Part shown: positions 32,627 to 45,330 of the stretch, one piece after another
How positions within the stretch are numbered: the first letter of the stretch is position 1
Layout: each line of letters opens with the position of its first letter
Source: a virus
Strand: one strand, 5' to 3'
IMG/VR virus record: IMGVR_UViG_3300021138_001874
Location: 1 to 48,141 of that record
DNA: 48,141 nt
The notes under the pieces: generated by a model
The model's database searches: none
What the model was told of the DNA's origin: nothing
What the model saw: the letters and a program-made list of their open reading frames with translations, nothing else
Made by a program: the position numbers and the translations under genes

Positions 32627-33625
32627 CTAAGCCGCAGCGGCAACAGTTGTGTTGATGGTTAAACTCTGAATACAATCGCCCATGCGCTCACTGGATAAAT
32701 TAATCAACCAAGGCAATAGCTCAAGAGGGATATGGTTGCTAATCAATTCTTGTAGCGACTCTTTACTCCCGCCTATGTCAGCCATAAACTTCGCTTTGCT
32801 TTGAACCAATTGATCAGAAGGAATAGAGTGAAACATACCTATTTCGGATGCCATTTGGGTAACTATCCAGCGTCTAGTTTCTCCATTTTCTAACGGCACA
32901 AGATTGATGGCGATGCTATTGTGTTGCACAGGCTCTTCGGGTTGTTTGGGCATAATTTCTCCGGCTACGCTTTTGATGCGTTCTGCCACTAAGTCTTCGA
33001 GTTCTTCGGGGGTAAAGGCCAGCTTAAGGGGTTCGGCTGGAATGGCTTGCTTTTTTAGGGGTAGTAACTTCATGCCTAAAAGACGCGCTGCTTCTGCTAA
33101 TTTACCTGCAGGGATGTTTTTGTAAGTGGTGATACCGTAATGCTCATAAATCTTGCGATACAAAATTGGATAAGCTTTACCATCGCTTTTGCAGAATGCT
33201 TCAATGGATTTTTTAAACTGTGCGGCTTCGGCTTCGCTGATAAACGGAGAGGCGAGTGACTTTAGGCCGTATTGGGGTTTTTGGAGTTGTTGAAGCTTAG
33301 CTTCTAGTTGATCAAAAGCATTGATATACGACTCTTTCCATTTAGCCGCTTCTTTGCCAGTGAAACCCATCGCTAAAAATATAAAGCCGTTTTTAGTCAT
33401 CTCATATGCTGGGCGCTTTTCGCCTTTAGCATCTAAATATTCAACCAGCCCAAAATTGAGCGCGTGAAATTCCGCTGAACATTCAAGGTTTTGGATTGCT
33501 CGCAAGACATGCGTATGACGCTTGCCAAAAAATTCAGCAACTTTAAGTGAAGTGGTTTTGATAACGCCATTGATTTCAGCAACGTCTGGGCGTAATTCGG
33601 TTGTAACTTGAGATTGATTGTTCAT
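32627..33625 (-). CDS. rha: Rha-family phage regulatory protein
   Basis: 332 aa. N-terminal Rha domain (TTSLKVAEFFGKRHTHVLRA, RPAYEMTKNGFIFLAMGFTG, KEAAKWKESYINAFDQLE), known from phi80 and similar phages. The central part (FKKSIEAFCKSDGKAYPILY, TYKNIPAGKLAEAARLLGMK) is an ORF6C-like domain. Rha proteins interfere with growth in IHF-deficient hosts and are early regulators. The ATG overlaps the TGA of a short upstream frame (coupled). Confidence 0.85.
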   Translation of the reverse strand: MNNQSQVTTELRPDVAEINGVIKTTSLKVAEFFGKRHTHVLRAIQNLECSAEFHALNFGLVEYLDAKGEKRPAYEMTKNGFIFLAMGFTGKEAAKWKESYINAFDQLEAKLQQLQKPQYGLKSLASPFISEAEAAQFKKSIEAFCKSDGKAYPILYRKIYEHYGITTYKNIPAGKLAEAARLLGMKLLPLKKQAIPAEPLKLAFTPEELEDLVAERIKSVAGEIMPKQPEEPVQHNSIAINLVPLENGETRRWIVTQMASEIGMFHSIPSDQLVQSKAKFMADIGGSKESLQELISNHIPLELLPWLINLSSERMGDCIQSLTINTTVAAAA

Positions 33626-33870
33626 GAGTAACTCCTTGCAAATGATTTTAAACCACCGCTCGAAGTGACCAAACTTTGGGCGGTGGGCAATGTATTAGGT
33701 TGGTCAATCGGGGCAAGGACCCGACAGGCTCGAAAGCCTCCCAATACACCACCCACCATAAAGTGAAGGGCATAAAAAAAGCCACGAACCTTTCGGCGCG
33801 TAACTTCTGCGCCTTGCTTACACGAGTGACCAAACCCGCCTGCCCAATGTGGGGCAGTGGGTAAATGATA
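33622..33870 (-). other. Ash/Icd-like leader frame upstream of rha; 317-bp region without firm gene
   Basis: The 317 bp between rha and the RelE gene hold no firm gene. One frame, ending TGA in the four-base overlap with the rha start, reads RRKVRGFFYALHFMVGGVLG, GFRACRVLAPIDQPN and ends SFARSYS. The FF...HFMVG pattern and the position directly ahead of a regulator recall the Ash/Icd-like leader peptides of satellite phages such as P4. I find no in-frame ATG with a ribosome site, so its start is unknown. Confidence 0.3.
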
Positions 33871-33942
33871 GCTGGGGTTCGTAACTTTGTCAAAATTTAC
33901 ACAATTATTTACAATGCTTATAAAATACTTATAATTGCTGCT

Positions 33943-34200
33943 ATGAACGAAATTAACTGGAATCCTAAAGCGCTTAAGCAAATAGAAAAGATCAAGGATA
34001 GTAAGGCACGAAAGCGTGTTTATACTGAATCGCAAGCCTTGTCTGATTTTCCACATTGTCAGGGCGTAAAAAAGCTGGTCAACCATGAATACAGCTACCG
34101 CTTGCGGGCTGGCAATTACCGAGTGTTTTTCGAGTTCGACGGCGATGTTCATATTATCAACATTGAAGAGGTGAAAAAACGTGATGAAAGCACTTACTAA
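33943..34200 (+). CDS. RelE-family toxin
   Basis: 85 aa from ATG 33943: INWNPKALKQIEKIKDSKAR, then HGYSYR-like NHEYSYRLRAGNYRVFFEFD and IINIEEVKKRDESTY. This is the RelE/ParE fold with conserved Arg and terminal Tyr. It is followed, with 17-20 bp overlap, by an HTH antitoxin. Oriented away from rha and opposite to the early operon. Confidence 0.85.
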   Translation: MNEINWNPKALKQIEKIKDSKARKRVYTESQALSDFPHCQGVKKLVNHEYSYRLRAGNYRVFFEFDGDVHIINIEEVKKRDESTY

Positions 34201-37508: not shown

Positions 37509-37700
37509 AAATAAAATTCTTCATGCTGTTACTCCGATAACCCGACAAAAAATGGCGTAGCAACATGGTCGGAGACATGCTTTCGAGCGCCCTCTAGCTA
37601 CGCACAAACTGTTAAAACTCTTTACCCCTAAAGGGCGGGGATTTTCACCGTGTTAAACTAAGCTCTCTTACCAACCACGTTTAACTAGGATCAATCCCCA

Positions 37701-38767: not shown

Positions 38768-38987
38768 CGACAACAAAATCACTGTGCACATATTCTTGTC
38801 CTGTAGACGTATGTGCGCCGTATTTAACAATAAGCTCTTCAAGCGCATTTATTTCTTTGTCAAAACAAGTTGTCCAAGACGTTTCAACCTGAAAACCAAG
38901 GTCAGGCCTATCGGTAATCAAGCAATAGTTATTGCCCAGCATCGCCAAGATGGCTTGATTAATAATCCGAACATCCGCCTCATCCAT
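38715..38987 (-). CDS. Hypothetical early protein
   Basis: 90 aa, MDEADVRIINQAILAMLGNN then a beta-rich part (LGFQVETSWTTCFDKEINAL). Start overlaps the end of the Cro-like gene by eight bases. The C-terminus overlaps the KTSC gene on the other strand; the last residues (PCNGRECNYCSNHP) may be the least reliable part. No family recognised. Confidence 0.5.
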   Translation of the reverse strand: MDEADVRIINQAILAMLGNNYCLITDRPDLGFQVETSWTTCFDKEINALEELIVKYGAHTSTGQEYVHSDFVVVRRPCNGRECNYCSNHP

Positions 38988-39210
38988 TGTTATTTTCCAA
39001 AGATGTCGGGGCGGATTTTCTAGGGTAGATAGAATCCATCATTTCTGTATCACTGAAGCCATAAGCATCTTGTATAGGTCTAACTCGTTCAGCATGGGGA
39101 ATTTTTTTTCCATTAATCCAATCCGACAAAGTAGAGTCGGCTATGCCTAGCGCAGCTGCCGCTAGGATTTGATTACCGTATATTTTTTTTAACTTAAGGA
39201 ATATGTTCAT
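38980..39210 (-). CDS. cro: Cro-like regulator
   Basis: 76 aa from ATG 39210 (MNIFLKLKKIYGNQILAAAA). HTH with LGIADSTLSDWINGKKIPHA, similar to the CI-like protein's DWINGEKLPS. First gene of the leftward early operon and divergent from the repressor, the classic cro position. Earlier ATGs in the frame lie within the operator region and are unlikely starts. Confidence 0.8.
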   Translation of the reverse strand: MNIFLKLKKIYGNQILAAAALGIADSTLSDWINGKKIPHAERVRPIQDAYGFSDTEMMDSIYPRKSAPTSLENNNG

Positions 39211-39220
39211 GGTTATATTA

Positions 39221-39259
39221 TTAGCCAATAGCGAATTATTTGCAACAGTTAATAGCGAA
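39221..39259. promoter_or_regulatory. Repressor operators at the cI/cro junction
   Basis: Two sites with the core AATAGCGAA: O1 TTAGCCAATAGCGAA (39221-39235) and O2 with the core at 39251-39259. Located between the divergent repressor and cro-like genes. Matching sites occur again at 43779-43817. Confidence 0.65.
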
Positions 39260-39283
39260 TTATGTTTGATAGATAATAAGGTG

Positions 39284-39778
39284 ATGAAATACCCAGAATA
39301 TGCCACTAGATTTAAACGGGCTTGGAAAGAGTTTAAGTCACCCATAAAAACCCAAAAGGAATTGGCGATTAAACTTGGAGTTGCTCAAGCAACTGTGAGT
39401 GACTGGATTAATGGGGAAAAATTACCGTCTATGGACACGGCGCTTGATATATCAGAAAAACTAGATTGTTGCGTTGTCTGGCTACTGACAGGCAAAGGCC
39501 AAAAATCCCCCAACGACCCGCCAGACTTACGAAACGTCATCGACGTGACTCACCTAAGCCCAGATCAGATCCAAGCCGTTAAGCTCATCATTGCCCAATT
39601 TGAGCAAACAAATCCGCCTAAATATGAACAAAAACTGTTGACAGCGCCTGCTGAAAATGCGGGGGGGGCATCTGAGCAAGCTCAACAGCCTCAAGCCCAA
39701 GATAGACGAGTAACCAACCATCAACGCTTCATGAAAAATTTACATGGAATGATTAGATCGACCTGCAGTAGCGAGTGA
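39284..39778 (+). CDS. CI-like phage repressor
   Basis: 164 aa from ATG 39284. HTH TQKELAIKLGVAQATVSDWI, then NGEKLPSMDTALDISEKL. No S24 peptidase domain is present, so it is not LexA-type self-cleaving; the C-terminal half carries the LSPDQIQAVKLIIAQFEQTN tail, which is repeated in a small gene at 19320, and a Gln/Ala-rich end. Eight G (39661-39668) in the C-terminal codons could slip. Expected to bind the AATAGCGAA operators and maintain lysogeny. Confidence 0.85.
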   Translation: MKYPEYATRFKRAWKEFKSPIKTQKELAIKLGVAQATVSDWINGEKLPSMDTALDISEKLDCCVVWLLTGKGQKSPNDPPDLRNVIDVTHLSPDQIQAVKLIIAQFEQTNPPKYEQKLLTAPAENAGGASEQAQQPQAQDRRVTNHQRFMKNLHGMIRSTCSSE

Positions 39779-39962: not shown

Positions 39963-40517
39963 ATGCTTATTAATCATGATAGAGAAAAGCTTATTCAAGC
40001 GATTATTTATTTTGCAAAAAACACACAATATTGCGGCAAAATAAAATTGTTTAAACTGCTTTATTTCCTTGATTTTGAGCACTATAAAATTACTGGGCGC
40101 AGTGTCACAGGACTAACTTATAGTGCGTGGAAAATGGGGCCAGTTCCGACCGCGCTATATGAAGAAATAGACTCACCTGAGCCAGATTTTGCCCTAGCAA
40201 TAAGCGTATCAGAAAAGCCCACACCCTATGGTCGGCCCATGTTGTCATTTAAGCCGAACAGTGCCTTTTTAGGAACGCTATTTTCAAGGCGTGAATTAAA
40301 GCTATTGGAAAAGTTAGCGCACGAGTACCAAGAAACAAAATCAGACGATATGATAGAGGCGACACACCTTGAAAATATGCCTTGGGATCAGGTCTATAAT
40401 AAACAAGGTAATAAACAAGCTGTAATCCCTTACGAATATGCGTTACAAATAAACGAGCGCGACGATATGCTAAGGCTAATTCAAGAGCGCAAGGAGATGG
40501 TTGAGGCGCTTGGATGA
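39963..40517 (+). CDS. Panacea (DUF4065/SocA-like) protein
   Basis: 184 aa. KLFKLLYFLDFEHYKITGRS, then LTYSAWKMGPVPTALYEEID and the C-terminal DMIEATHLENMPWDQVYN are the signature of the Panacea/DUF4065 domain, a common antitoxin for diverse toxins. The expected toxin partner follows directly but is reduced to 23 codons. A hairpin GTCGC/GCGAC precedes the gene at 39930. Confidence 0.85.
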   Translation: MLINHDREKLIQAIIYFAKNTQYCGKIKLFKLLYFLDFEHYKITGRSVTGLTYSAWKMGPVPTALYEEIDSPEPDFALAISVSEKPTPYGRPMLSFKPNSAFLGTLFSRRELKLLEKLAHEYQETKSDDMIEATHLENMPWDQVYNKQGNKQAVIPYEYALQINERDDMLRLIQERKEMVEALG

Positions 40518-40585
40518 ATGCCGGCTCCATATTTTTTGATACCAACTTTCACTCGCTACACATTGATAAAGGTTTAAAAAACTAG
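40514..40585 (+). pseudogene. Truncated partner of the Panacea gene
   Basis: 23 codons overlapping the Panacea stop by four bases (ATGA): AGSIFFDTNFHSLHIDKGLK. The pattern GxIFFDxNFxxxD resembles the N-termini of proteins encoded next to Panacea antitoxins, so this may be the start of a lost toxin gene. The rest of the expected gene is absent. Confidence 0.45.
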
Positions 40586-40725
40586 ATAAATAACCGCACT
40601 TAAAGCGGGAATTATTAAGAGGCAATGCTGTCTAAGTTGGCACATTGTGGACAAACATCCCTATTAAACTTACTATACATAAACCTTTAGTAGTAATTCT
40701 ATGCATAATCATTGCAGGTAAAAAT

Positions 40726-40968
40726 ATGGTTATTATCGATTTTTCAAAAACATCAAAACAAGCATTTATAAATGGGTTTTCAAAAGGGCTTGCGGCGCCC
40801 GTCATGTTATTTGGAAGCTTTGACGCGCCACCTTTAGTAGAAATAAAACAAATATATGCTCAACCAATTAGTGATGAAAACGCACTGCAAAGTGATTGGT
40901 ATAAAATTGGCACAGACATTAATAATGTAATATCTCGATATGACTCAAAAGTCAGTACAGAAAAATAA
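40726..40968 (+). CDS. Hypothetical protein
   Basis: 80 aa from ATG 40726: IIDFSKTSKQAFINGFSKGL, then a segment PLVEIKQIYAQPISDENALQ. The upstream ATG at 40645 would add a hydrophobic leader (VVILCIIIAGK) but has no ribosome site. Function unknown. Overlaps the DUF2335 gene by 29 bp, so both are probably one unit. Confidence 0.55.
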   Translation: MVIIDFSKTSKQAFINGFSKGLAAPVMLFGSFDAPPLVEIKQIYAQPISDENALQSDWYKIGTDINNVISRYDSKVSTEK

Positions 40969-41374
40969 CAGAAGGGCTATTAAGCAAACTGCTACTAGCC
41001 AATCTTCTTTAACCCATTATCAAGGCCCCATTCCTCCCCCTGATATTTTAAAGGGATTAGATGATTTGGTGCCAGGCACGGCGGCAAAATTAATTCAATT
41101 AGCGCTTGAAGAATCCGCACATCGAAGAACATTAGAAATTAAAGTTGCAGACGCTAATATTTCAGCTCAACAAAAACAAACAGAAATTAATCTAAAACAA
41201 ACAAAAGCTGTATTTACAAGTGATCTCTTAGGACAAATATTTGGCTTTTTAGTTTGCATTACTTCAATAGGCTTATCAGGTTATTTAGGATATAAGGATC
41301 ATGAAGCATTAGCTTTTGCAATTGCCGCTATTCCCACAGCTGCAATTATTAAAGCATTCATTATAAAAAAATAA
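40940..41374 (+). CDS. DUF2335 membrane protein
   Basis: 144 aa. HYQGPIPPPDILKGLDDLVP and AAKLIQLALEESAHRRTLE match DUF2335, a family of phage/prophage-associated membrane proteins. Two transmembrane helices follow (ILGQIFGFLVCITSIGLS-like and AFAIAAIPTAAIIKAF). The cytosolic N-terminal half may bind a partner. Terminator directly after. Confidence 0.8.
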   Translation: MTQKSVQKNNRRAIKQTATSQSSLTHYQGPIPPPDILKGLDDLVPGTAAKLIQLALEESAHRRTLEIKVADANISAQQKQTEINLKQTKAVFTSDLLGQIFGFLVCITSIGLSGYLGYKDHEALAFAIAAIPTAAIIKAFIIKK

Positions 41375-41408
41375 TTAGCTAAGTTAAACAACTCAACTTG
41401 ACATCAAA

Positions 41409-41429
41409 CCGCTTAACTGCGGTTTTTTT
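41409..41429 (+). terminator. Terminator after DUF2335 gene
   Basis: CCGC-TTAACT-GCGG stem followed by seven T. It also begins the repeated spacer element (ACACCCACTTAAAAAA...) described separately. Confidence 0.75.
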
Positions 41430-41480
41430 ACACCCACTTAAAAAAATACTCAATCACCCATCCTGCCTTGTGCGGGTTTT
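41423..41480 (+). repeat. Repeated spacer/terminator element, copy 1
   Basis: TTTTTTTACACCCACTTAAA and following TACTCAATCA, then CATCCTGCCTTGTGCGGG plus T tract. The second half can fold as CCTGC/GCGGG with U tract. Copies also at 42153 and 43688. Confidence 0.65.
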
Positions 41481-41500
41481 TGCGACTAATATTTCATACC

Positions 41501-41890
41501 TCAATGCCTCATAGCCTCTCTAGCAGCTTGAGCAAGGAAACCTGAGCGTGTTGCCCCGTGCGCTTTTGCATAACTATCAATCTCACTGACTAAACTTTGT
41601 GGCATAGAGATATTTAAGCGCACGGGTTTAGTATCAAGCTTTGTAACATCCACATCAATTAATAACCAAACTCCATCAACATAATCAGCATCCGTCACTA
41701 GCTTATCTAATGAACTAGGCTTAGGTAACTCTAAGTTTTGACCCTCGCACCATAGCTCAATAGCCTCCTGAACCATGCGAGGCAAATCTTGCCAGTCATC
41801 AGCCGCAGAAAAACACCCAGGAAAATCGGGGATAGAAACACCGTGGGCGTGAGCTGCATCGCCTAAATGGATATACACAGGATATAACAT
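41501..41890 (-). CDS. hicB: HicB antitoxin
   Basis: 129 aa. N-terminal partial RNase H-like fold (VSIPDFPGCFSAADDW) and a C-terminal ribbon-helix-helix (VRLNISMPQSLVSEIDSYAK). Located eight bases after HicA, the usual toxin-first order. Bound HicB blocks the HicA active site and represses the operon. Confidence 0.9.
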   Translation of the reverse strand: MLYPVYIHLGDAAHAHGVSIPDFPGCFSAADDWQDLPRMVQEAIELWCEGQNLELPKPSSLDKLVTDADYVDGVWLLIDVDVTKLDTKPVRLNISMPQSLVSEIDSYAKAHGATRSGFLAQAAREAMRH

Positions 41891-41898
41891 AAAATCTC

Positions 41899-42084
41899 CT
41901 ACCAGTCCCAGCCGGCTTGTTTGTAAATATTACGTAAAGTACCTATTGCCAAATCCTTGCGCGGATGTGGCACGACGACATGGCCAAGCTTAGTGGTGTG
42001 CGCAAATTTTTCATGATCGCCTTTGCCACCCACCTTAAACCAACCTTCTTTTTGTAAACGCTTAATAATGTCTTTGCTGTTCAT
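41899..42084 (-). CDS. hicA: HicA toxin
   Basis: 61 aa. dsRBD-like fold with KRLQKEGWFKVGGKGDHEKF and VVPHPRKDLAIGTLRNI, including the conserved His of the mRNA interferase active site. Ribosome site AGGGT. Full length and intact. Confidence 0.9.
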   Translation of the reverse strand: MNSKDIIKRLQKEGWFKVGGKGDHEKFAHTTKLGHVVVPHPRKDLAIGTLRNIYKQAGWDW

Positions 42085-42152
42085 ACCCTAAATTATACAC
42101 ACAAATACACAATAAAGCTAAACAAGCCTACTCAAAACAAATCCTCCTCACA

Positions 42153-42170
42153 CATCCTGCCTTGTGCGGG
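42153..42170 (+). repeat. Repeated terminator element, copy 2
   Basis: CATCCTGCCTTGTGCGGG followed by GTTTTG. Same as copies at 41459 and 43688; hairpin CCTGC/GCGGG. Lies between the HicAB and DUF4258 cassettes. Confidence 0.6.
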
Positions 42171-42177
42171 GTTTTGT

Positions 42178-42200
42178 AAATGTCCGCTAGGCGGACATTT
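42178..42200 (+). promoter_or_regulatory. Palindromic operator candidate
   Basis: Ten-base arms AAATGTCCGC and GCGGACATTT around TAG. It lies 19 bp before the start of the DUF4258/HTH pair, where an autoregulatory antitoxin site would be expected; a weak hairpin terminator is the alternative. Confidence 0.5.
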
Positions 42201-42219
42201 AAAGATTTTGCGCGAGTGT

Positions 42220-42468
42220 ATGACTGATGACTCTAAAATATTTATTAGTCCTCATGCTAAAAAGCGAATGACAGAACGGAACATTACCCTTAAGCAGGTT
42301 TTAACCTGTATAGAGAAAGGCAGGATTAGCGAATCACCCTATAGAGACATAAAGGGAGATTGGCGGTGTATAATTGATCATTACACATCAGGCAGCGCAG
42401 TAACCGTAGCAACTGCCTTTAAATATAATAATAACGGAGAGTACATAGTTGTTGTGACTGTGTTTTGA
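42220..42468 (+). CDS. DUF4258 toxin-like protein
   Basis: 82 aa from ATG 42220: PHAKKRMTERNITLKQVLTC, then SPYRDIKGDWRCIIDHYTSG and a strand ending VVTVF. This is DUF4258, a RelE-related family that often forms type II modules with an HTH antitoxin. The next gene overlaps the stop with its alternative start and starts 14 bases later. Confidence 0.8.
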   Translation: MTDDSKIFISPHAKKRMTERNITLKQVLTCIEKGRISESPYRDIKGDWRCIIDHYTSGSAVTVATAFKYNNNGEYIVVVTVF

Positions 42469-42482
42469 ATGAGGCTGGTAAT

Positions 42483-42920
42483 ATGTATCACTATCAAGAA
42501 AGCGGATTAAATAACATTTGGCTTGTTAATGGCTACACTACGCTAGACGACCCTGAGTATGGGCGGTGCGTGTCCATTACTGATGTCTTTGGATTAAATA
42601 AAGCTATTGCTCATAACCTTATCTACAATAAGCCTACACTTAGCGGGGAGGAGTTTAGATTTTTGCGTAAAGAACTCGACTTATCGCAAAAAGCTTTAGC
42701 CGACTTGATCGGCAAAGATGAGCAGTCAGTTGCTAGATGGGAAAAAAGCGGTAAAGCCCCCAAGTGGGCAGATAGAATGCTAAGAGCCTGTTTAATTGAG
42801 TTTTATGGTGAGGCAACAGGTATTTTAGAATTGATAGCTAGAATTAAAGATATTGATGAAAAAGAACAGGAAAAAGAAATATTTAAGGATTATGATTCGG
42901 GCTGGAAGCGAGCCGCTTAA
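42483..42920 (+). CDS. HTH antitoxin of the DUF4258 module
   Basis: 145 aa from ATG 42483 (GAGG upstream). N-terminal toxin-binding part (MYHYQESGLNNIWLVNGYTT), then HTH: RKELDLSQKALADLIGKDEQ, SVARWEKSGKAPKWADRMLR, as in MqsA/HigA-like antitoxins. It would also bind the palindrome at 42178. Confidence 0.8.
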   Translation: MYHYQESGLNNIWLVNGYTTLDDPEYGRCVSITDVFGLNKAIAHNLIYNKPTLSGEEFRFLRKELDLSQKALADLIGKDEQSVARWEKSGKAPKWADRMLRACLIEFYGEATGILELIARIKDIDEKEQEKEIFKDYDSGWKRAA

Positions 42921-43027: not shown

Positions 43028-43315
43028 TTAAGCTGCCCAATCCAGCTCAATCTTAAACTGTAGTCCTGCTTTAATAGCGAGCGATAGCAGCATATCTAGG
43101 CTAAACTTCTTCCATTGACCACGAACTAAGTTAGATACCCGAGATTGAGTAATCCCAAGCCTTTCGGCAACTTCTTCTTGCGTTAAGTCTTTCTCTATAA
43201 TCCACAGTCTTAACTTGGCCATCAAATTAGCACGAATCTGCAATACTTCGGCCTCATGGGGCGGAAAGCCAAGGGCTATAAATAAATTCTCGCTAGCCTC
43301 AATAATTTCTGTCAT
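43028..43315 (-). CDS. XRE antitoxin of a RelE-type module
   Basis: 95 aa. HTH TQEEVAERLGITQSRVSNLV, GQWKKFSLDMLLSLAIKAGL. N-terminal linker to the toxin. Intact; it is coupled to the damaged toxin gene by a TAATG overlap. Confidence 0.85.
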   Translation of the reverse strand: MTEIIEASENLFIALGFPPHEAEVLQIRANLMAKLRLWIIEKDLTQEEVAERLGITQSRVSNLVRGQWKKFSLDMLLSLAIKAGLQFKIELDWAA

Positions 43316-43630
43316 TACTTTTCTCCAATTTGCTTAAAGCGTAACCTAGCTAATTCAAGATCACGCGGGGCGGTTTTCTGGGTTTTTTTCTGAAAACAAT
43401 GTAATACATATACGCCCTCAGGCAGTGCCGCTAAATAAACAACTCTAAATATCCCGTTTGCTCTTATTCGTATCTCACGAACGCCAGCACCAATACTAGG
43501 CATAGGCTTCCAGTCTGATGGATTAAGCCCTAATTGGACTTGATAAAGCTCAATACCAGCATCACGCCTAGCATCTTCTGGAAAATCCCGAAGATCGTCT
43601 TTGCTGACCTAAGAATATAGTTTTTTTCAT
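43315..43630 (-). pseudogene. RelE/Gp49-like toxin gene with frameshift
   Basis: The family N-terminus reads MKKTIFLG from ATG 43630 in one frame, and the rest (SKDDLRDFPEDARRDAGIEL, YQVQLGLNPSDWKPMPSIGA, REIRIRANGIFRVVYL, VLHCFQKKTQKTA) in another. The shift lies at about 43606-43609 and fits loss of two bases. An internal ATG at 43503 gives only a 62-aa C-terminal piece. The paired antitoxin remains intact. Confidence 0.75.
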
Positions 43631-43687: not shown

Positions 43688-43740
43688 ATCCTGCCTTGTG
43701 CGGGTTTTTTTACACCCACTTAAAAAATACTCAATCAATC
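43688..43740 (+). repeat. Repeated spacer/terminator element, copy 3
   Basis: CATCCTGCCTTGTGCGGG with T7, followed by ACACCCACTTAAAAAATACT and CAATCA, the same two blocks as copy 1 but in the opposite order. Confidence 0.65.
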
Positions 43741-43778
43741 AAGCACTTAAATTATTTTACTGGGTTTTGTTGAAATAA

Positions 43779-43823
43779 TTCGCTATTGGCTATTGACATA
43801 AATTCGCTATAGGCGAATAATAT
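43779..43823 (+). promoter_or_regulatory. Rightward early promoter with CI operators
   Basis: TTGACA at 43793-43798, then AATAAT at 43816-43821 (17-bp spacer). TTCGCTATTGGCTAT (43779-43793) flanks it and TTCGCTATAGGCGAA (43803-43817), a near-perfect palindrome, lies inside the spacer. Both are the reverse complement of the AATAGCGAA core at the cI/cro junction, so the repressor should block this promoter. Confidence 0.7.
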
Positions 43824-43898
43824 CCCTCAACAGCCCAGCAAGCTGAAAAGATTTTAGCTTGCCAAGCTTTCTCCTAGGCCCGAAGGCCACACTCCGTA

Positions 43899-43922
43899 CC
43901 CCTCGCAATGAGGGGCTTTTTT
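43899..43922 (+). terminator. Leader terminator 1
   Basis: CCCCTC-gcaat-GAGGGG stem, then C and six T. About 75 nt after the expected start of the early transcript. Confidence 0.7.
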
Positions 43923-44056
43923 ACGAATCCTTAGTGATAGGCACTGTTTTTGAAGGTCAGTGTTTATCAGTAAGAATTTTGCGGCGGGAGTCCACCAGCT
44001 CCTTAATAAGCCTGGTGCAGTGGTTAACAATGGTTATGCCAATGCCGTAAAGCTAA

Positions 44057-44085
44057 CCCAGACCGGCTAAGAGTCTGGGATTTTA
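44057..44085 (+). terminator. Leader terminator 2
   Basis: CCCAGAC/GTCTGGG 7-bp stem followed by ATTTTAT. Confidence 0.6.
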
Positions 44086-44112
44086 TAGGTAACAACTTTA
44101 AATAAAGAGTAC

Positions 44113-44147
44113 CCCTCGATGGCTTAGCTTAGTCAAAGAGGGTTTTT
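44113..44147 (+). terminator. Leader terminator 3
   Basis: CCCTC/GAGGG stem with a 20-base loop followed by five T; weaker than the first because of the loop size. Confidence 0.5.
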
Positions 44148-44311
44148 ACGCATGGGATCTTAATCTTGTTCAACTGCAAGTAAAAAGCTACTTGTACAGG
44201 AAGCAGGCGAGATCCCATCCTTAAAAGTACGTACCCCGCAGAGCAACCTGCCTTAACAAAGCAACCTTTATTGCGCTGGACAGCTCCAGCGCACCTTATT
44301 GGAGAAAAGAA

Positions 44312-44539
44312 ATGAGCATTAAAAAAGACTACGCCAATAGAGCAACTCTATTAACCCCAACAGAAGACTATGACAACCACTGGCACAGTGATCTTGCAAT
44401 GGCACGTAAAGGTATTATTGCTGCTATTGTCGTGATAATAGCCGCACTTACTCTTTCAGTCGTATCTTACGCAGCCCAAGCTCCTGCAACTCAATCAGTA
44501 TCAAGCCAAAGCTTGGTTGATCAAAACGGAGAAGAGTAA
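44312..44539 (+). CDS. Small membrane protein before recT
   Basis: 75 aa with one transmembrane helix (GIIAAIVVIIAALTLSVVSY) flanked by a polar N-terminus and a Gln/Ser-rich tail. Ribosome site TTGGAGAAAAG. Its TAA overlaps the ATG of recT (TAATG). No family recognised; a membrane anchor or immunity-type function is possible. Confidence 0.65.
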   Translation: MSIKKDYANRATLLTPTEDYDNHWHSDLAMARKGIIAAIVVIIAALTLSVVSYAAQAPATQSVSSQSLVDQNGEE

Positions 44540-45330
44540 TGAACGCAGTAGTAAAAATTCAAGAAAACAATGGCATACAACCTATTGGTGCAGCGGAACT
44601 TGTTAGAAATCCATCCATGATGGATCAATTTAACGCCTTGGCCTCTGTTATGGCAGGCAGCAAAGTAACAATTCCTAAGCACTTGCAAGGCTCTACAAGT
44701 GATTGTTTTGCTATCGTATTACAAGCAGCACAATGGGGCATGTCGCCGTTTAGCGTTGCCCAAAAGACCCATTTAGTAAATGGTGTGCTGGGCTATGAAG
44801 CGCAATTAGTCAATGCAGTGATACAAGCATCAGGAGCAATTACCGGGCGCTTTCATTATGAATACACTGGAGAAGGCGAAAACTTAGCCTGCCGTGTAGG
44901 CGCAATTATTAGAGGCGAATCAGAAGTAGTCTGGAACGAATGGTTAACAGCTCGATCTGTAGCAACAAAAAATTCACCTTTATGGAAAACAAACCCAAAA
45001 CAACAGCTCGCTTACTTGCAAGTTAAAAACTGGGCAAGACTGTATTGCCCAGGCGCAATCTTGGGCGTGTATTCAGAAGATGAATTACCAGATGAAAAAA
45101 TTATTAATCAAGCAGGTAGCATTGAATCAAACACCGTAATTGATATAAAGCCAGAGCCTCGCACATGTTCAGACGAATATTTTAAAAAAAACCAATCAAA
45201 ATGGCGTGATCCAATCATTTCAGGGACTAAAAATGCTCAGGACGTCATTGATTACGTGGCAGCAAAAGGTTTTGTTTTTTCAGAAGAGCAGCTATTAGAA
45301 ATAGATAGCTGGACACACGAAAACGATTAA
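44539..45330 (+). CDS. recT: RecT-family single-strand annealing protein
   Basis: 263 aa. HLQGSTSDCFAIVLQAAQWG, SPFSVAQKTHLVNGVLGYEA, and later TNPKQQLAYLQVKNWARLYC, the RecT core. The C-terminus (DVIDYVAAKGFVFSEEQLLE) is less conserved. Works with the adjacent exonuclease in double-strand-break and replicative recombination (Red-like). Confidence 0.9.
   Translation: MNAVVKIQENNGIQPIGAAELVRNPSMMDQFNALASVMAGSKVTIPKHLQGSTSDCFAIVLQAAQWGMSPFSVAQKTHLVNGVLGYEAQLVNAVIQASGAITGRFHYEYTGEGENLACRVGAIIRGESEVVWNEWLTARSVATKNSPLWKTNPKQQLAYLQVKNWARLYCPGAILGVYSEDELPDEKIINQAGSIESNTVIDIKPEPRTCSDEYFKKNQSKWRDPIISGTKNAQDVIDYVAAKGFVFSEEQLLEIDSWTHEND

Follow-up and report, generated by a model that had tools for sequence, protein, structure and literature searches.

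The 484-nt RNA leader that runs from the early promoter of this phage (43793–43821) to its first early gene (44312) is a structured cis-regulatory RNA, with covariation-supported structure at a recurring place in the operon, and we consider it new among the cis-regulatory RNAs of phage early operons. It most probably controls whether transcription gets to the early genes. Direct support exists for the promoter with its operators, the helices, the covarying pseudoknots, the modular build and a leader that remains constant across operator swaps. All evidence is comparative and the viral contigs are metagenomic; the window, i.e. the whole stretch of DNA analysed here (48,141 nt; IMG/VR record IMGVR_UViG_3300021138_001874), is a virus contig.

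The early region shows a lambda-like layout, in which the early promoter is the counterpart of PL and the cro promoter that of PR:

43793–43821, plus strand: early promoter TTGACA-17-AATAAT, sigma-70-type, 11 of 12 consensus positions; transcription predicted to start near 43828
43777–43818, plus strand: two operator copies, AATTCGCTATTGGCTATT (43777–43794) and AATTCGCTATAGGCGAAT (43801–43818), 24 bp apart, at the PL-type promoter
39217–39261, minus strand: rightward (cro) promoter with two operators, nearly leaderless
39287–39778, plus strand: CI-like repressor (Pfam Phage_CI_repr, 1e-8)
38980–39210, minus strand: Cro-like protein (Pfam HTH_3, 1e-6), divergent from CI
44312–44539, plus strand: first gene, encoding 75 aa, one hydrophobic span, C-terminus SLVDQNGEE, with relatives behind such leaders
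44539–45330, plus strand: second gene, RecT-like annealing protein (Pfam RecT, 4e-26; phrog_561, 2e-82)

The operator motif, beginning with AATTCGCTAT, occurs twice at the early promoter (43777 and 43801) and twice more, with the same 24-bp spacing, at 39220–39261 between the divergent CI-like and Cro-like genes. The genes driven by the PL-type promoter encode the small membrane protein, RecT and a RecE-like exonuclease; a search of the rightward operon for a second leader copy or a similar segment found none. The 75-aa protein had no match in Pfam or PHROG, and its relatives stem from ten sources (L124, L103, L105, L114, L118, L004, L005, L130, L131 and L128). Small membrane proteins beside the leader or its module B usually end in [SA]LVDxxGxE, and in many related phages the early operon opens with the gene of a small protein ending in SLVDxxGEE. 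Between repressor and early promoter (39963–42920, 43028–43503) lie an ORF with a SocA/Panacea domain, HicAB-like and HigBA-like pairs, and DUF4258 and HTH genes. The terminator-like sequence CCTGCCTTGTGCGGGTTTTT is present at 41462–41476 and 43690–43704 and recurs several times between early genes of these phages.

Comparison of related phages revealed that the operators upstream are exchanged and the leader is constant. In L002, a phage ~99% identical to the window over 40.5–47.2 kb, the operators differ at both promoters, as does the DNA-binding half of CI, and the leader is the same except for module B. The two phages form a heteroimmune pair with a common C-terminal CI half and early region (39217–39778 and 43777–43821 in the window; L002, L145). 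The operator motif is replaced by another motif in both L002 and L124. More generally, operator regions are 60–77% alike between phages whose leaders stay 88–100% identical, and ~10 different operator pairs stand before the same leader types.

An ORF survey from ~43828 to the ATG at 44312 found no credible gene, bearing out the gene-free stretch of ~490 nt described in the original prediction; the structured stretch had been placed between the early promoter and recT, which holds except that the 75-aa ORF comes first and recT second. The sole leader ORF (43859–44050, 63 codons, TTG start) was rejected for want of a ribosome site, and an MVMPMP mini-ORF was rejected as missing from L103 and L105. 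Folding of 43828–44320 gave −175.8 kcal/mol vs. −132.8 ± 5.5 kcal/mol for dinucleotide shuffles (z −7.8; 0 of 100 equally low) and, after G+C correction by regression, the leader is the most stable among 395 equal-length windows across the record. Helices and hairpins of the leader, other than P1, P2 and the pseudoknot helix described below, are:

43838–43862, 43877–43888, 43899–43915 (T1) and 43934–43969: helices with pair probability near 1
44057–44079 (T2), 44113–44142 (T3), 44150–44219 and 44272–44293: further helices with pair probability near 1
43926–43978, plus strand: long hairpin between T1 and module B, from pair probabilities
44150–44219, plus strand: long hairpin C, from pair probabilities, with a single G-C to A-U double change in L124
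44272–44293, plus strand: stable hairpin D, a 9-bp perfect stem adjoining the ribosome site GGAG (44301–44304)

The leader contains at least eight helices, eight of them with pair probability near 1, compared with the six stem-loops counted originally, and the stable hairpin expected right before the ribosome site was recovered as hairpin D, upstream of the GGAG at 44301. Compensatory changes in homologous leaders, proposed as a check on the stems, were looked for and are present; the stems are conserved. Rfam 15 returned no match to the leader at the gathering score and no convincing one with lax filters, and for the L103 leader microRNA models only, far under the gathering score. Elsewhere in the window, a C4 antisense RNA (Rfam RF01695; 33676–33763, minus strand; 59 bits, gathering score 45) lies directly upstream of a Phage_pRha gene (33625–32630, minus strand) and overlaps an ORF (33622–34152) that has no Pfam match.

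Three of the hairpins resemble intrinsic terminators:

43899–43922, plus strand: T1, intrinsic-terminator-like, CCCCUC/GAGGGG (6-bp stem) followed by CUUUUUU, one C ahead of six U; unchanged in L002 and L124
44057–44089, plus strand: T2, terminator-like, CCCAGAC/GUCUGGG with loop CGGCUAAG and a weak U-tract; compensatory change in L002
44112–44147, plus strand: T3, terminator-like, CCCUC/GAGGG (5-bp outer stem) followed by UUUUU; lost in L002

The original claim of at least three stem-loops with terminator form thus stands as to the three terminator-like hairpins, but their quality is mixed, and T1 and T2 have modest terminator scores, owing to the spacer base before the U run of T1 and the poor U-tract of T2. 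In L002, the T2 arms CCCAGAC/GUCUGGG have become CCCGCAC/GUGCGGG, and ~55 nt before T3 are gone, which fuses T2 to the T3 tail and gives it the T3 U-tract. The T2 loop CGGCUAAG is kept in close relatives, and other versions of T2 are found in L128 and L129.

T2 belongs to a larger structured unit, module B, whose pseudoknot (43986–44017) the first reading of the sequence had overlooked:

43974–44091, plus strand: module B, structured RNA comprising P1, P2, pseudoknot and T2; covariance model R1, 130.6 bits, the window itself being one of the source sequences of R1
43979–44050, plus strand: P1 closing helix, UUGCGGC (43979–43985) with GCCGUAA (44044–44050)
43986–44003, plus strand: P2, GGGAG (43986–43990) with CUCCU (43999–44003); double-sided changes in 4 of 5 pairs
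43993–44017, plus strand: pseudoknot helix, CACCAG (43993–43998) with CUGGUG (44012–44017); double-sided changes in 5 of 6 pairs, 100% of cells paired

The P2 loop and the strand after P2 form an H-type pseudoknot, with an A-rich loop between the strands of the pseudoknot helix. This pseudoknot is well supported by compensatory changes. In a first six-row alignment (window, L002, L124, L103, L105 and L106), 100% of cells were paired and 7 pairs changed on both sides vs. 3.3 in shuffles, a signal that was destroyed by sliding the partner strand. An alignment of 12 divergent copies has 98.5% of its P2 and pseudoknot cells paired, with double-sided changes in 9 of 11 pairs, a value reached by 0 of 500 shuffles; since several alignment rows are related to one another, such shuffle counts are not probabilities. 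The pseudoknot helix takes the forms CACCAG/CUGGUG, CACCGG/CCGGUG, CUCUCG/CGGGAG, CUCGAA/UUCGAG and CAGACG/CGUUUG, and P1 likewise covaries across relatives (G-U, A-U, G-C or U-A at one position, C-G or U-A at the next).

In 10 of the 12 module B copies, P1 is followed by a terminator-like hairpin with a U-tract that varies and arms that are unrelated between copies (CCCAGAC/GUCUGGG, CCCGCAC/GUGCGGG, CCCUAGC/GCUAGGG, or GCCCG/CGGGC plus UUUUUUU); this hairpin is weak in L131 and absent from L134, and L132 is degenerate. The position of the module varies as well: in L130 and L131 it follows the first membrane-protein gene, ahead of the next gene, and in L135 and L136 it lies between early genes, flanked on both sides by terminator-like hairpins, which marks module B as a mobile early-operon unit. 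A search for a conserved antiterminator pairing that would exclude T2 found none: the GCCG of the P1 3′ strand can pair with the CGGC of the T2 loop in some copies only, and this candidate was rejected, as the match is not kept in L130, L131 and L133. In L134 (2727–3030), the P1 5′ strand can pair in two ways, with the P1 strand downstream of it or with a 14-nt complement further upstream, ACCATCACGAAACC, possibly a natural switch without a terminator. By eye, a tRNA-like sequence is seen directly 3′ of module B in L131 (1602–1680).

In the 5′ part of the leader, the window carries the following elements:

43829–43862, plus strand: 5′ element, an AACAGC..GCUGAAA motif plus the hairpin 43838–43862, from pair probabilities
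43868–43875, plus strand: UUUCUCCU segment, a possible partner of the ribosome-site GGAGAAA (44301–44307), pair probability 0.79–0.99

The AACAGC..GCUGAAA motif is also found at the 5′ end of the L124, L129, L132 and L137 leaders, and the window 5′ hairpin may alternatively form a small pseudoknot (CAGC/GCUG plus GCAA/UUGC). Most related leaders instead start with module A, a pseudoknot (ACGG/CCGU plus AAUCC/GGAUU) with an adjoining hairpin, followed in most by a boxA-like GCUCUUU, a hairpin, CUCCU and T1. In module A, 98.6% of cells pair and 5 pairs show double-sided changes; its ACGG/CCGU helix hardly varies. Model R2 found no match to module A in the window, and a likeness noted by eye near 37650 (CGGTGAAAATCCCCG) was rejected on the same result. 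A CUCCU-GCC..GGC-ACA segment before T1 is common to the window and several module A leaders. As side observations, repeat ORFs with GGTTACGGTGACGGT-like units are located inside the early leader region of L005 (1781–2008) and L137 (1900–2110), and GGCAAGGC repeats in that of L082.

Searching with the T2 hairpin matched eight IMG/VR contigs. The exact window version of the hairpin is present in L124, together with other operators and other recombination genes (301 genomes searched, representing the order of a Methylococcaceae metagenome assembly). Module B occurs in 7 of these 301 methanotroph-order genomes in addition to the IMG/VR contigs; the covariance model added six further copies in the host order, and a pattern search three more contigs. 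Beyond the host order, a draw of 369 genomes of the class, made without a positive control, contained no copy, and a search of 50,697 phage records for similar DNA found none. The host order is probably Methylococcales, an assignment made indirectly from the matches of relatives. Taken across phages, the leader modules are exchangeable and mobile.

We propose that the leader could act as a tandem attenuator, exerting cis RNA control over the PL-type early operon in temperate methanotroph phages, an idea to which we give about an even chance. Transcription would start at the CI-repressed promoter and, on its way to the first gene, meet between one and three terminator-like hairpins. These are adjoined by folded modules: in the window, the 5′ element precedes T1 and the module B pseudoknot precedes T2, and in relatives the module A pseudoknot lies ahead of T1. 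Each fold, on emerging from the polymerase, would decide whether the next hairpin terminates. The leader might in this way provide a second checkpoint behind the repressor, keeping leaky expression low while the phage is a lysogen and freeing the operon upon induction or infection, and the final hairpins probably also govern how the first gene is translated. We infer that T1–T3 terminate and that the adjoining pseudoknots, which would read a signal, control them, because terminator-like hairpins between a regulated promoter and its genes have been kept in many phages despite sequence change. The modest scores of T1 and T2 and the failure to find a conserved pairing that would exclude T2 argue against an attenuator, and the pseudoknot may have another role, given that in L134 it occurs without a terminator after it. 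The general class of pseudoknot riboswitches with a terminator likewise has a P1-closed pseudoknot domain followed by a hairpin of this kind, but here there is no Rfam family match and the setting is that of phage early operons.

The original prediction likened the leader to the put RNAs of phage HK022. HK022 put suppresses terminators without proteins, via the β′ zinc-binding domain. Both systems place a cis-acting RNA just 3′ of an early promoter and terminators or terminator-like hairpins ahead of the early genes, without a dedicated antitermination protein gene in front. However, put comprises two stem-loops and is present at both early promoters (PMC9378689), whereas here pseudoknot modules are interleaved with terminator-like hairpins in one early operon only. 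Membership in the put family was not borne out: a covariance model built from 8 put RNAs (R3) finds both HK022 puts (putL, 96 bits; putR, 53 bits), yet its best hit in the window is at chance level and outside the leader (5.2 bits, E 1.8), and it has no match in 25 relative sources; the leader is thus distinct from put. A put-like though unrelated mode, in which the nascent pseudoknot would stay on the polymerase so that T1–T3 and later terminators are ignored, appears unlikely to us. It would suit a leader directly behind a repressed early promoter, with no protein gene preceding the terminator-like hairpins, and pseudoknots with A-rich third loops; put, too, folds compactly and includes a triplex (PMC9378689). 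Apart from the silent put model, module B comes after T1 here and, in L130 and L131, behind the first gene; the rightward operon has no copy; and module B itself precedes a terminator-like hairpin, which better fits a local device than a processive element. With similarly low probability, the modules might represent a second, unrelated class of RNA-only antiterminators, i.e. pseudoknots that let the elongation complex pass the next terminator and are exchangeable among methanotroph phages. Lambda nut/N and rrn boxA also act from leader RNA, in lambda that of an early operon, and module A leaders contain a boxA-like element; no N-like gene precedes the terminator-like hairpins here, which sets the leader apart from lambda. 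For module A leaders, boxA-dependent antitermination is possible: GCUCUUU is found in most copies (CGCUCUUUGUACAA in L114; also L004, L005, L137 and L138), though the L103-type copies are one motif base short, and a boxA-type TGCTCTTTAACAA exists in two host-order genomes (L146, L147 and L148), where a search for 16S start motifs near the sites found none. As an account of the leader in general, recruitment of NusB/S10 by the module A sequence, with or without a phage protein, is very doubtful, because the window has no module A and its boxA was rejected (29 matches to TGCTCTTTAACAA with up to 3 mismatches vs. 30.6 expected, those in the leader having 3).

Other readings shift the function away from readthrough. 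Transcripts ending at T1–T3 might act in trans as small RNAs on host or phage, with readthrough being secondary; stable, conserved folds bounded by terminator-like hairpins would fit, as would unpaired motifs that are conserved, e.g. the T2 loop CGGCUAAG, but the modules keep their early-operon place, intergenic copies are less natural for separate small RNAs, and we consider this improbable. A special case is known from phage P4, where leader immunity (CI RNA) involves terminators in the early leader. The window leader has terminator-like hairpins in the same place; it is, however, common to phages with different operators and repressors, which renders a P4-type immunity determinant unlikely. 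Type III toxin–antitoxin systems (ToxI) similarly place a pseudoknot RNA with a terminator in front of a gene, but neither their tandem pseudoknot repeats, of which the leader contains none, nor a ToxN endoribonuclease gene, sought with Pfam and PHROG among the scanned downstream proteins, was found, leaving a ToxI-like antitoxin unsupported. The leader might also protect the mRNA and mask the ribosome site of the first gene, through CUCCU/GGAG pairing over 400 nt. The high pair probability of UUUCUCC/GGAGAAA in the window and CUCCU-like segments ahead of T1 in most relatives point this way; yet own pairs were not significantly above cross-lineage pairs (598 of 5040 permutations), CUCCU fits any ribosome site, and the terminator-like hairpins are left unexplained, so that we hold a post-transcriptional role to be quite improbable. 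A tandem attenuator would be the simplest reading, on which we are evenly divided.

Phages beyond the enterobacterial models must also pass early terminators. The leader described here offers a compact, well-supported RNA family that comes in many natural variants and behind exchanged operators, and a direct reporter test is therefore possible. The covariance model may in addition be used to find early operons of methanotroph phages.
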